Source: Sphingomonas sp. HMP6 (GTDB lineage: Bacteria; Pseudomonadota; Alphaproteobacteria; Sphingomonadales; Sphingomonadaceae). Taken from it: DNA of 64,000 bases. The stretch's first letter is position 1; each line of letters opens with the position of its first letter. The stretch is from the NCBI RefSeq assembly GCF_013374095.1, contig NZ_AP022672.1:3573072-3637071 (forward strand). Reading direction: 5' to 3'. The notes under the pieces were generated by a model that ran no database searches, was not told where the DNA came from, and saw nothing but the letters and a program-made list of their open reading frames with translations. The translations under genes and the position numbers were made by a program. Shown in pieces: positions 3,259 through 7,640 of the stretch.

Positions 3259-3333
3259 TGGTGACCCCTACGAGAATCGAACTCGTGCTTACGCCGTGAG
3301 AGGGCGTCGTCCTAACCGCTAGACGAAGGGGCC
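3259..3333 (-). tRNA. tRNA-Glu (anticodon CTC)
   Basis: The minus strand folds as a 75-nt cloverleaf. The acceptor stem GGCCCCT pairs with AGGGGTC, followed by discriminator A and an encoded CCA. The D-arm is GTCTAGCGGTTAGGAC. The anticodon stem ACGCC/GGCGT encloses loop CTCTCAC with anticodon CTC. The T-arm contains GTTCGATTC. Body and identity elements match bacterial tRNA-Glu; this CTC form would decode GAG. Confidence 0.95.
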
Positions 3334-3632: not shown

Positions 3633-5003
3633 TCAGGCCGCCGCGCGCCGCCGTTCGGCCATTTCGACGTTGAGCATCTCCGCCAACAGGAATGCAAGCT
3701 CCAGCGATTGCCCCGCGTTCAGACGCGGATCGCAATGGGTGTGGTAGCGGTCGGCCAGCGATTGCTCGGTGACATCCACCGCGCCGCCGGTGCATTCGGT
3801 CACGTTCTGGCCCGTCATTTCGGCGTGGATGCCGCCTGCGATCGACCCCTCGGCGCGATGCACCGCGAAGAAGCCGCGTACTTCCGCCAGGATTCGGTCG
3901 AACGGGCGCGTCTTGTAGCCGTTCGCCGCCTTGACGACATTGCCGTGCATTGGGTCGCAACTCCAGACGACGGGATGCCCCTCGCGCAGCACGGCGCGGA
4001 CCAGCTTGGGTAGGCCCGCCTCGATCTTGTCGTGACCGTAGCGGGTGATGAGCGTCATGCGGCCAGGCACGCGGTTGGGATTGAGCGTGTCGAGCAAGCG
4101 CAGCAGCGCGTCCGGCTCCAGGCTTGGCCCGCATTTCATGCCGATCGGGTTGCCGATACCACGCAAATATTCGACATGCGCGCTGCCCTCGAAGCGTGTG
4201 CGGTCGCCAATCCACAGGAAATGCGCCGACGTGTCGTACCAGTCGCCGGTCAGCGAATCCTGCCGCGTGAGTGCCTGTTCGTAGCGGAGCAGCAGTGCTT
4301 CATGGCTGGTATAGAAGCTCGTTTGGGCCAATTGCGGTACGGTTTCCGGGCTGATCCCGCAGGCGGCCATGAATTCGAGCGCCTCACCGATTCGGTCGGC
4401 AGTTTCAGCATATTTCTTCGCCCACGGGCTGCGGCCCATGTAATCGTGCGTCCAACGATGGACTTGCGCGAGATTTGCGTAACCGCCGCCCGCGAAGGCG
4501 CGCAGCAGGTTCAGCGTCGCCGCGGACTGGCTATAGGCGCGGATCATCCGCTGTGGATCGGGCTGGCGCCCGTCCGCCGTGAAGTCGATATCGTTGACGA
4601 TGTCGCCGCGGTACGCGGGCAGCGTAACGTCACCTTGAGTCTCGGTATCGGCCGACCGCGGCTTGGCGAATTGCCCCGCCATGCGACCGAGCTTCACCGT
4701 CGGCAGTTTCGACGCGAACGTCAGCACGACCGCCATTTGCAGGATGACGCGAAAGGTATCGCGAATGTTGTTGGCGCTATGCTCGGCGAAGCTCTCGGCG
4801 CAATCGCCGCCTTGCAGCAGGAACGCCTTGCCCTCCGCCACACGGGCGAGGTCGGCGGTCAGATTGCGTGCTTCGCCGGCGAAGACGAGCGGGGGGAAGC
4901 TGGCGAGCGTATCGGTCGCCGCGTCGAGCGCAGCGGCGTCCGGATAGGTCGGCATCTGCCGCGCGTCGGCACGCGTCCAGCTATCGGGGGCCCAAGCACT
5001 CAT
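3633..5003 (-). CDS. aroG: Class II 3-deoxy-D-arabino-heptulosonate 7-phosphate synthase
   Basis: The enzyme condenses phosphoenolpyruvate and erythrose 4-phosphate to DAHP, the first step of the shikimate pathway. The 456-residue core beginning MSAWAPDSW matches the plant/mycobacterial class II family. Visible motifs are [11 protein letters not shown] with the metal-binding Cys, [37 protein letters not shown] and [15 protein letters not shown]. The start at 5003 has a strong Shine-Dalgarno (GGAG 6 bases before the ATG). However, the frame is open upstream for 72 or more codons that encode an HTH domain, so a longer fusion product starting at 5219 or 5210 is possible (separate entry). Confidence 0.9.
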
Positions 5004-5219
5004 GTCATTCTCCGTGCGAATCGAAATATACCAATCGGCGTGGGTGGCGATGCCGTTGGCCGCGATTTGATTGACGGCCGGGCCGCTTGCGCGTTTGCCG
5101 TCCTCCTCCCAACCCTGAACGGTCGAGCCGGGCGCGCCATACCAGGCACCGAACGCGGCGCGGGTGAGCGCACGGTCCTCGCGGAAGCGCCGGATCTTGA
5201 TGCCTGCCATCGTCGTCAT
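5004..5219 (-). other. In-frame XRE-like helix-turn-helix segment upstream of DAHP synthase
   Basis: From the ATG at 5219 (alternative 5210) the frame encodes about 72 residues and reads without a stop into DAHP synthase. The segment has the Cro/C1-type HTH pattern: [18 protein letters not shown], then a recognition-helix-like [13 protein letters not shown] and a hydrophobic tail with HADWYI. Either the cell makes an HTH-enzyme fusion, or this is a small regulator gene that lost its stop, with the enzyme also initiated internally at 5003. Two TTACCC-N5-GGGTAA-type dyads just upstream fit a DNA-binding product. HTH identity is from pattern only. Confidence 0.55.
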
Positions 5220-5229
5220 GCCCAGCGCA

Positions 5230-5246
5230 TTACCCAGCGTGGGTAA
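5230..5246 (-). promoter_or_regulatory. Operator-like dyad TTACCC-N5-GGGTAA (copy 1)
   Basis: This is a perfect 6+5+6 dyad in the 61-bp gap before the HTH start at 5219. Its centre is 33 bp from that of copy 2, about three helical turns. Size and placement suit a homodimeric Cro/C1-type regulator, probably the HTH domain encoded immediately downstream. This is inference from symmetry and position. Confidence 0.5.
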
Positions 5247-5262
5247 GTCGGGCAAGCGGAAA

Positions 5263-5279
5263 TTTCCCAGACGGGGTAA
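5263..5279 (-). promoter_or_regulatory. Operator-like dyad (copy 2, one mismatch)
   Basis: Read on the minus strand it is TTACCC-CGTCT-GGGAAA, matching copy 1 except for one base in the right half. It lies immediately downstream of the D-2-hydroxyacid dehydrogenase stop codon and upstream of copy 1. Confidence 0.45.
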
Positions 5280-5280
5280 T

Positions 5281-6216
5281 TCAGTACCCGGCGGTCAGAT
5301 CCACGACATTTTCCATTGGCCGTCCATCGCGGAAGGCGTCGAGGTTGCGCAGGAACAACGCGGCGGCGCGCTGGAACATCTTGGTCTGGCTGCGACCCGA
5401 CAGGTGCATCGTGTGGATGAGGTTGGGCGCGGCCCACAGCGGGTCTTCCGGTGGCAGCGGCTCGGGCGTGACGGTGTCGAGGCAGGCGCCGCCGATGCGT
5501 TGCGCCGTGAGCGCGGCGATCAGCGCGTCCTGATCGACCATGTCGCCGCGGCCAAGGTTGAACAGCCACGCGCCGGGCTTCATCGCCGCGAGTTCGCGCT
5601 CGCCGATCATCGCCTGCGTCGCATCGGTCGAGGGGGCGGCAAGGATCACCCAGTCGAATGCGCCGAGTTTGGCCTTCCACGCATCCGGGGTCAGCGTGCC
5701 GTCGCGGCCCGATCGCGTCACACCGGTGACCGCGACGCCGAATGCGGCCAGCCGCTCGCCGATCAAACGTCCGATCGCACCATAGCCGACGATCAGCGCG
5801 CTGGTTTCGAACAGTTCGATCCGGCCGGGGGCGTAGTCGGGCCAGGCACGTCGATCAGCGATCCGCACCACCTCGTCATAGCGCTTCGCCGCCACCAGCA
5901 CGCTCATCACGGCATATTCGGCAACCGCGACGGCGTTGATCCCGCTACCGTTGGTGACGATCGTCCCGTCGCGCGTGAGTTTCGCCATGTCGAGCGAATC
6001 GATTCCGGCGATAGCGGTGAACAGCCATTTCAGCGATGTCGCCGCCGCCACGGCTTCCGGGGTTAGACCGTGCGGGAAGAGATCGACCCAGCCGATATCG
6101 GCATCGACCATCGCTGCCGTTGCCTCTTCACGGGTCGTGACCCAGGCGATCTCTAGATCGTCGGGCAAATGCGCCTCGATCAGGCCTCGGACGAACGCGG
6201 GGAGGACGGCTTTCAT
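5281..6216 (-). CDS. D-isomer-specific 2-hydroxyacid dehydrogenase family protein
   Basis: 311 residues. The Rossmann NAD(P)-binding motif is [14 protein letters not shown] in the middle of the protein, followed by the family pattern with Arg in [12 protein letters not shown], acidic residues in [17 protein letters not shown] and His in MHLSGRS. These correspond to the Arg-Glu-His catalytic set, with HLSG in place of the more common HISG or HIAG. It should interconvert a 2-oxoacid and a D-2-hydroxyacid; the substrate cannot be read from sequence. The start at 6216 overlaps the cysS stop as ATGA, so the two are coupled. Confidence 0.85.
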
Positions 6217-7640
6217 ACGGTCAGTTTCCAATCCCAACTAAGCGAATCGCCGTCCATCACTTCGACCCCGGCCGCGGCGAGCGTATCGCGTATCGCGTCG
6301 GAGGCCGCGAAATCCTTCGCCACGCGTGCGTCGCGGCGGGCGGCGAGGTGGGCCTCGATTTCATCTTCGTCGAGCGTCGCCGTGGCGGGCCGCAGCCGAA
6401 GACCGGCGCGGTTCAGCGTCTCGAGCTTAAGGCCCAGCACGGCGTCGAAATCGCCAAGGGCGCGCAGCCGCGTTGCGGGCGACAGGCGTTTGTCGGCGAG
6501 CAGGTCGTCGAGCACGGTCAGCGCGCGCGGCGTAGCGAGATCGTCGCCAACCGCCGCCTCTAATTGCGCGAGATACGGTTCGGCATCGCCCTTAAGCAGG
6601 TAATCGTCGCGCGACCGCAACGCGTCGCGCGCGATCACCAGGCGCTTGAGCCGTGTGAACGCCGCCGCCAGATTCTCCCAGGTGAATTCCAGCTCGCTGC
6701 GGTAATGCGCCTGCAGGCACATCATCCGATATGCCAGCGGATGAAAGCCGGCATCGACCAGCGTCTGGAGCCGCAGGAACTCACCGGTCGATTTCGACAT
6801 TTTCGATCCGCGATCGACCAGGAAGTTGTTGTGCATCCAGATCCGTGCGCCCGTATCGTCGCAACCGCAAAACGCCTGGTTCTGCGCAATCTCGTTGGGA
6901 TGGTGGATTTCGCGGTGGTCGATCCCGCCGGTGTGGATGTCGAAGGGATGGCCGAGATGCTGGCGACTCATCACCGAGCATTCGAGGTGCCAGCCGGGGG
7001 CGCCCTTGCCCCAGGGTGAATCCCATTCCATCTGGCGCTGCTCCCCGGGAGGTGAGCGCCGCCAGATCGCGAAATCCTGCGGATGGCGTTTGCCCGAGAC
7101 GGGATCGATCCGGCTTTCGCCCGCATCCGAAACGGCGCGCGCGAGGCTGCCGTAATCGGGCACACGGGTCGTATCGAAATACAGCCCGCCTTCGATCAGA
7201 TAGCAGTCCTTTTCGATCGCCTGCGCGAACGCAATCATCTGCGGAATGTGGTCGGTAGCCACCGTCCATTCAGCCGGCGGATCGATGTTGAGCCGCGCGA
7301 CATCGTCCTTGAACGCCGCCGTATAATGCGCGGCGATCTCCCAGATCGATTTTGCCTGCGCCGCGGCGGCCTTTTCCATCTTGTCGTCGCCCGCATCGGC
7401 GTCGCTGGTCAAATGCCCGACATCGGTGATGTTGATGATGTGCTTGGTCGGATACCCCTTCCAGCGCAGCACGCGGCCGAGTGTATCGGCGAACAGGAAG
7501 GCGCGCATGTTGCCGATGTGCTGATAGTTATAAACCGTCGGCCCGCAGGTGTAGATTCGCACGAGTGCCAGATCGATCGGCACGAACGGCTCGGTCGCGC
7601 GCGTGAGGCTGTTATAGAAGGTGAGGGGGGTGCCAGTCAT
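6213..7640 (-). CDS. cysS: Cysteine--tRNA ligase
   Basis: 475 residues, the usual length. Class I synthetase signatures are present: TCGPTVYNYQHIGNMR near residue 31 contains the zinc-binding Cys32 and the HIGH-type motif HIGN, and KMSKSTGEF lies near residue 280. It charges tRNA-Cys with cysteine in the cytoplasm. It is the first gene of a two-gene unit with the hydroxyacid dehydrogenase, and its start is divergent from rpsU. Confidence 0.97.
   Translation of the reverse strand: MTGTPLTFYNSLTRATEPFVPIDLALVRIYTCGPTVYNYQHIGNMRAFLFADTLGRVLRWKGYPTKHIINITDVGHLTSDADAGDDKMEKAAAAQAKSIWEIAAHYTAAFKDDVARLNIDPPAEWTVATDHIPQMIAFAQAIEKDCYLIEGGLYFDTTRVPDYGSLARAVSDAGESRIDPVSGKRHPQDFAIWRRSPPGEQRQMEWDSPWGKGAPGWHLECSVMSRQHLGHPFDIHTGGIDHREIHHPNEIAQNQAFCGCDDTGARIWMHNNFLVDRGSKMSKSTGEFLRLQTLVDAGFHPLAYRMMCLQAHYRSELEFTWENLAAAFTRLKRLVIARDALRSRDDYLLKGDAEPYLAQLEAAVGDDLATPRALTVLDDLLADKRLSPATRLRALGDFDAVLGLKLETLNRAGLRLRPATATLDEDEIEAHLAARRDARVAKDFAASDAIRDTLAAAGVEVMDGDSLSWDWKLTV

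Follow-up and report, generated by a model that had tools for sequence, protein, structure and literature searches.

The window, the whole stretch of 64,000 nucleotides of Sphingomonas sp. HMP6 that we analysed, contains a minus-strand gene in which a helix-turn-helix (HTH) domain is joined to the N-terminal end of a class II 3-deoxy-7-phosphoheptulonate (DAHP) synthase, or DAHPS (Table 1). Read directly, the enzyme is 456 codons long (ATG 5003–5001, stop 3635–3633), and 72 codons running from an ATG at 5219–5217 precede it in the same frame with no stop between, which bears out the single open frame claimed in an earlier sequence-only reading of this DNA. The frame extends upstream of the HTH ATG as far as a TTG at 5255. 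Residues 73–528 are predicted to be a catalytic class II DAHP synthase, scoring 688.6 bits against the TIGR01358 equivalog (cut-off 614.7) and, for the enzyme part, 679.1 bits against PF01474, and fusion residues 74–517 align with residues 8–449 of 5uxm. The fusion gene follows that of a dehydrogenase on the same strand, and a tRNA-Glu (CTC) lies downstream of it (window 3259–3333, minus strand).

Table 1 Features of the fusion locus, in window coordinates
Feature	Position	Strand	Remarks
HTH-DAHP synthase fusion gene	3633..5219	minus	528 codons plus stop; frame open in 118/118 loci read
Cro/C1-type HTH domain and short linker, residues 1–72	5004..5219	minus	predicted fold; below Pfam cut-off
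Class II DAHP synthase, 456-residue form from internal ATG	3633..5003	minus	TIGR01358
Internal enzyme ATG	5001..5003	minus	kept in 103/118 loci
Shine-Dalgarno GGAG, 6 nt 5' of internal enzyme ATG	5010..5013	minus	GGAG in 100/103 loci with ATG
−10-like TAATGC, in part within the near dyad and 7 nt 5' of the HTH ATG	5227..5232	minus	putative, by reading
Near operator-like dyad, perfect TTACCC-N5-GGGTAA	5230..5246	none	conserved in 118/118 loci
−35-like TTGCCC, lying between the dyads with 17 bp to the −10-like hexamer	5250..5255	minus	direct reading
Far operator-like dyad, TTACCC-N5-GGGAAA on the minus strand, one mismatch	5263..5279	none	
Upstream neighbour, 2-hydroxyacid dehydrogenase gene (ATG form), outside the system	5281..6219	minus	ends 1 nt before the far dyad

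The HTH takes up about the first 64 residues of the fusion. Its score against Pfam HTH_31, 21.4 bits, is under the curated cut-off of 27, and its profile found no match among PDB sequences. Modelled alone with AlphaFold from 67 aligned sequences, however, the HTH reached a mean pLDDT of 92.3, and Foldseek ranked the operator-bound P22 c2 repressor first in the PDB for this fold (probability 1.00, E 0.008); in no case was E below 0.001. By predicted fold, the HTH domain is genuine despite its sub-cut-off Pfam score. A structure prediction for the whole fusion from 13 close sequences gave a pLDDT of 32, too low for use. The sequence-only reading had proposed comparing synonymous with non-synonymous change: pN/pS was 0.17 for the HTH versus 0.12 for the enzyme over 231 pairs of 22 loci of the window's own clade, and 39 HTH columns were invariant across 13 genomes. 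By these measures the HTH is under purifying selection. The window's own genome also encodes a distant relative of the HTH (L003, position 2374342, 33% identity in a 109-residue frame, E 4.5e-4), which lies near an integrase-like frame.

Two operator-like dyads, one perfect and one with a mismatch, lie 33 bp apart, centre to centre, as had been described from the sequence alone. Counted on both strands, four dyad matches were observed against 0.11 expected, the largest number in 100 shuffles being two. The 3.64-Mb genome has a single copy of the perfect dyad; allowing one mismatch adds the far dyad and one further site, at genome position 1313684 (L268, 1501–1517), where a gene resembling one for a ROK-type regulator starts. 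This site was taken as a chance match. Two-mismatch dyads were not enriched in the genome, with 25 sites compared with 62 for the pattern read backwards, and no wider set of targets is therefore suggested. The near dyad lies between and over the promoter-like boxes TTGCCC and TAATGC, and the second box ends so close to the HTH ATG that the arrangement suggests a leaderless message and a blocking operator. A scan for E. coli-type sigma-70 consensus found no promoter at the locus, and an Rfam scan found tRNA only, with no RNA family at the dyads.

Conservation of the fusion and its dyads

A whole-protein search of 61 genomes returned full-length, stop-free fusion matches in 13, the window's own genome included, and a 14th genome (G012) carries a fusion split over two contigs. 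The profile of the 13 HTHs matched 126 of the genus's 295 genomes with E no higher than 0.001; matches were strong (E 4e-38 or better) in 120 of these 295, the other six being weak or a free gene. We fetched 123 fusion loci and dropped five repeats, leaving 118 that represent all strong genomes except G211 and G012. The ATG at the HTH start is kept in every one of the 118 loci read, own included, and no stop intervenes from the HTH into the enzyme, so that the frame held up in the related genomes to which the earlier reading had pointed. One fusion frame is just 467 residues long (L040, G262), ending early inside the enzyme, perhaps through a sequencing error, and the L147 locus is cut by a contig end. 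An independent scan of named genomes matched 85 candidate loci; the 80 among the matches listed are in Sphingomonas, Stakelama, Sphingosinithalassobacter and less precisely named relatives, several of them apparently on the same contigs as in the genus set. Judged by these counts, the fusion is a conserved system in many Sphingomonas.

The near dyad matched at least 10 of 12 arm bases in all 118 loci, at −25 to −29 from the HTH ATG, a level reached by 0.13% of mononucleotide shuffles. It was perfect in 93 loci, and its spacer is free, with 81 different five-base sequences. The far dyad matched at least 9 of 12 arm bases in 102 loci (shuffles, 2.4%) and fell below this in 16; among the 102, its distance was 32–36 bp in 82, 23–24 bp in 9 and other in 11. 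Both arms were altered together in the two dyads of L145–L147, which read TTACGC-N5-GCGTAA, and in the near dyads of L126 and L131, which read TTACTC-N5-GAGTAA. Each of the 118 loci has a TTG 5–12 nt ahead of the near dyad and retains the TAA of the dyad arm that forms part of the −10-like hexamer. In contrast, at 17 same-genus loci without the HTH (from 19 such in the 61-genome search), the best dyad within 300 nt matched 7–9 of 12 arm bases (two at 9), equal to shuffles. The dyads, whose conservation the sequence-only reading had put forward as a check, are thus found with the HTH and sink to shuffle level without it. With a near dyad at every fused gene and a perfect dyad that is single in the genome, the predicted site of action lies at the gene's own promoter, as a self-repressing enzyme would have it.

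Three changes of the fusion label are required on the enzyme tree, which holds 156 enzymes; this tree came from a short search, has 56 weak inner branches of 151, and leaves out L147 and L304 (no core found). DAHPS in 23 of 23 genomes of other genera matched from enzyme residue 2–4 onward, and the HTH profile found nothing ahead of DAHPS in those genomes. Outside the family, no HTH match was stronger than E 1.2e-7 among 289 genomes from the class, or than E 9.6e-5 among 396 genomes from the order. Close to the end of contig C1 of G026, at 3913926–3915503, three matched pieces make up a second copy of the fusion gene, which may reflect an assembly overlap. Three records named Bacillus, Stenotrophomonas and Parvimonas (P0011, P0015 and P0021) hold this Sphingomonas-type protein, probably through contamination or misnaming.

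The internal enzyme start

The internal enzyme ATG is absent in 15 of the 118 loci. Where it is present, GGAG stands 6 nt before it in 96 loci and 8 nt before it in four; by a wider definition, a ribosome site precedes 101 of 103 internal enzyme starts versus none of the 118 HTH starts. The excellent ribosome site that had been reported for the internal start in the window is accordingly the common condition. The first G of GGAG is the last base of an L, T, A, V, M, S or Q codon in 96 of 100 loci; T, A, L, V and S codons in the same genes end in G in just 32–58% of cases.

Fourteen of the 15 loci without the internal ATG are also without GGAG, and six (L056, L083, L104, L105, L113 and L133) contain no start codon (ATG, GTG or TTG) after the HTH and ahead of the conserved core of the enzyme. 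Loss of the internal ATG among fusions needs at least six changes on the enzyme tree. The fused gene is the sole class II DAHPS in all 16 genomes checked (the window's own and the 15 without the internal ATG), and 14 of these gave no class I-type DAHPS match; G096 and G133 gave a 276-residue class I-type match that may be another enzyme. With no other start before the core and no other class II DAHPS, the fusion must be a working enzyme in six species, and in every open frame read the enzyme and the DNA-binding domain are encoded as one chain. The alternative raised in the sequence-only reading, that a fusion and a free enzyme both arise, fits most species through the internal ribosome site and fails in those six. 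Where both starts exist, the window included, it is likely that the fusion and the HTH-free enzyme are both made, and the HTH-free enzyme could be the main product.

Free phage relatives and a fusion to NAD synthetase

We read free relatives of the HTH at eight distinct loci, four in genus genomes and six in viral contigs, two being shared; their proteins are 77–124 residues long. At all eight prophage or viral loci the gene occupies the position of Cro, diverging from a gene for a repressor-like HTH protein. Three of three such repressor-like genes tested scored above Pfam HTH cut-offs; a DnaG-type CHC2 zinc-finger gene follows in L064, L066 and L176, the three loci tested for it. Every free locus has a 6-N5-6 palindrome at −25 to −28, with 4–6 of 6 pairs, and by reading a TTGC ahead of it. 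CCC-N5-GGG is present in five of the eight, versus 22 of 4000 random positions; the palindrome of the other three lacks the complete CCC/GGG. L386, L389 and L067 each have a further palindrome close by that is equal or better. The palindrome of L065, CTACCC-N5-GGGTAG, is one base per arm from the DAHPS operator-like dyad. Prophage L065 (5219, minus strand; the same locus as L390) shares genome G213 with fusion L096, where cross-talk is possible. Six of the eight free relatives (L385, L386, L387, L389, L390 and L064) carry C-terminal CxxC...C...C cysteines, a possible zinc site, and the DAHPS fusions are without this set. Searches with the free relative P0012 gave 21 phage records and six plasmid hits, weak and partial. 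The fusion HTH resembles phage Cro and P22 c2-type regulators in its predicted fold, its short palindromic operator-like sites and its Cro-position prophage relatives; unlike them, it forms part of a host enzyme, and its chromosomal locus has no adjacent, divergent repressor gene.

The same HTH family also occurs inside open frames of at least 564 residues in 56 genomes of 16 other genera (397 family genomes searched). At 41 loci read, from 40 genomes, the sequence of a glutamine-dependent NAD synthetase (NadE) begins after the HTH. These loci are L154–L175, L179–L196 and L198; L163 and L179 come from one genome, and a 42nd locus fetched, L197 (G354), was left out with its 77-residue frame. 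Two NadE fusions tested passed NF002730 (1046 and 1027 bits, cut-off 473) as well as Pfam CN_hydrolase and NAD_synthase. A perfect GTATCC-N5-GGATAC precedes HTH-NadE in 38 of the 41 loci and has one mismatch in two; in L198, where the HTH has diverged, the palindrome has diverged too, to TTATCT-N5-AGATAA. The NadE fusions carry both a different half-site and a different recognition region from the DAHPS fusions. In counts over 36 loci, which left out L174, L175 and L194, the palindrome lies at −26 or −27 in 34, and the internal ATG is absent in two (L158 and L182). A ribosome site by our own rule precedes only 7 of the 34 internal ATGs, so the two-product design may not hold for HTH-NadE. HTH-NadE appears to act at its own promoter.

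Public names with HTH-NadE include Erythrobacter, Porphyrobacter, Altererythrobacter, Croceibacterium and Qipengyuania. The NadE fusion is patchy: among nine further genomes of other genera, four have a close NadE match that begins no earlier than query residue 80, and for 12 genomes of the Sphingomonas genus, seven of them with the DAHPS fusion, the NadE match begins no earlier than residue 63. Within one genus (g30), NadE is fused in G480 (L187) and not in G326 (L248), which points to recent gain or loss in places. Public records name the proteins DAHP synthase or NAD(+) synthase and their Pfam column shows no HTH, leaving the regulator invisible in annotation.

A tree of 67 HTHs, built on 72 columns and rooted at the midpoint, with bootstrap values that had not settled, places the DAHPS group in one clade (93/97) and the NadE group in another (99/99), and does not unite the free relatives in a single clade. 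The simplest reading of these sequences is that a Cro-like domain was captured together with its operator and promoter, and transfer is likely to have run from phage to host.

Proposed mechanism, alternatives and known parallels

The explanation that we hold with good confidence is that a prophage Cro cassette, captured in frame with DAHP synthase, gives a DNA-binding enzyme that would repress its own promoter; very probably, the fusion lowers the expression of its own gene. In an ancestor of this Sphingomonas group, the class II DAHP synthase gene would have been joined in frame to a Cro-like regulator from a sphingomonad prophage, which would have brought along its promoter and operator. Pairs of HTHs, brought together by a presumably oligomeric enzyme, would bind TTACCC-N5-GGGTAA. 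Binding at the near dyad, between the −35-like and −10-like boxes, would block transcription, and the far dyad would strengthen this repression. The message would start at or beside the HTH ATG and yield the fusion without a ribosome site; the internal ribosome site would yield HTH-free enzyme in most species and so set the number of HTHs per oligomer. The class II DAHP synthase of M. tuberculosis is described as a homotetramer with allosteric sites near its interfaces (PMC5493349), and in some class II enzymes an N-terminal extension is reported to help form such sites (PMC6435475). It is at this end that the fusion carries its HTH. As a tetramer, the fusion could offer paired HTHs to both dyads, in an arrangement that bound ligand could alter; aromatic amino acids may exert some control.

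Repression is more probable than activation, since the near dyad lies over the promoter-like core. The fusion might instead activate its own promoter, as lambda CI does at PRM, and many loci do have a second dyad upstream of the −35-like box. That upstream dyad is the dispensable one, however, and the dyad kept in every locus sits where a bound dimer should block polymerase, which makes activation unlikely. We think it distinctly improbable that the dyads are bound by another cellular repressor while the HTH has some other role, for example in stability or localisation. The cell does have other HTH proteins, such as the distant relative at L003, but the dyad and the HTH occur together throughout the 118 loci, with dyads at shuffle level in those without the HTH, and a perfect dyad is found only once in the genome. 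Moreover, NadE fusions differ in half-site and recognition region alike, both have diverged in L198, and the free phage relatives have their dyads at the same place.

The HTH frame could also be a once-useful remnant carried along by a gene of which only the 456-residue enzyme from the internal start matters now. The well-kept GGAG before that start favours this, as does the match of the enzyme part alone to solved class II enzymes. Yet 15 loci have lost the internal ATG, six of them with no start at all before the core and the fused gene their sole class II DAHPS, and a low HTH pN/pS, the invariant HTH columns and the universal near dyad also speak against a remnant, leaving it very little credence. 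Least credible to us is a role of the dyads as leader RNA hairpins: in some loci both arms have changed in step, as pairing would require, but the arms are identical in 93 of 118 loci although any paired arms would do, no Rfam family matches at the dyads, and the near dyad overlaps promoter-like boxes with no ribosome site following.

By analogy, the system closest in logic to a self-repressing DAHP synthase is PutA, trifunctional proline utilization A, a metabolic enzyme described as repressing its own regulon and as having a DNA-binding domain at its N terminus (PMC5293562). Its DNA-binding domain is a ribbon-helix-helix on a proline-degrading enzyme that switches to the membrane, and is reported there to be one that could be moved to an enzyme without one (PMC5293562). 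The present fusions differ in their Cro/C1-type HTH, anabolic enzymes, phage relatives and conserved internal enzyme start, and in that two unrelated enzymes were captured. NadR of enterobacteria has an HTH joined to enzymes of NAD synthesis, as in HTH-NadE, but joins other enzyme domains and regulates other genes. Among DAHP synthases, a chorismate-mutase-like domain belongs to a class I enzyme and is not known to bind DNA. The DAHP synthase described with such a domain at its N terminus (PMC5526877) is like the fusion in having an extra N-terminal domain and unlike it in that this domain is a chorismate mutase homologue. Type IIA class II DAHP synthases are like the enzyme part of the fusion, being class II enzymes; passages of PMC6435475 on them name no added DNA-binding domain, and the term 'helix-turn-helix' is absent from its main text. 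Among the top matches in the full-text literature, with subscription papers mostly outside it, we found by title or abstract opening no description of a regulator–DAHP synthase fusion, in line with the earlier statement that none was known, and none of an HTH–NAD synthetase; nor did the top matches on enzyme–regulator fusions in general describe such fusions by title or abstract opening.

These comparisons suggest two versions of a self-regulating enzyme, a kind already known, each constructed from a phage-type cassette. A broader claim, which we regard as unlikely, is that in this bacterial family the phage Cro–operator cassette is a repeatedly domesticated control part, captured at least twice (by the unrelated key enzymes DAHP synthase and NAD synthetase), with cross-talk between enzyme and phage. 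Such cross-talk is possible because some prophage operators, as at L065, still resemble host ones; if true, the host enzyme would dampen the early promoter of related phages, or a phage Cro would lower host aromatic synthesis. The DAHPS fusion sits at the entry of the aromatic pathway, and NAD synthetase supplies a second, separate example. Together the two fusions would show one route by which a phage domain and its binding site, moving as a unit, come to control core metabolism. The design is compact, in that repression would follow from the amount of the enzyme itself and the gene also provides for an HTH-free product, and it could serve as a ready autoregulated module.
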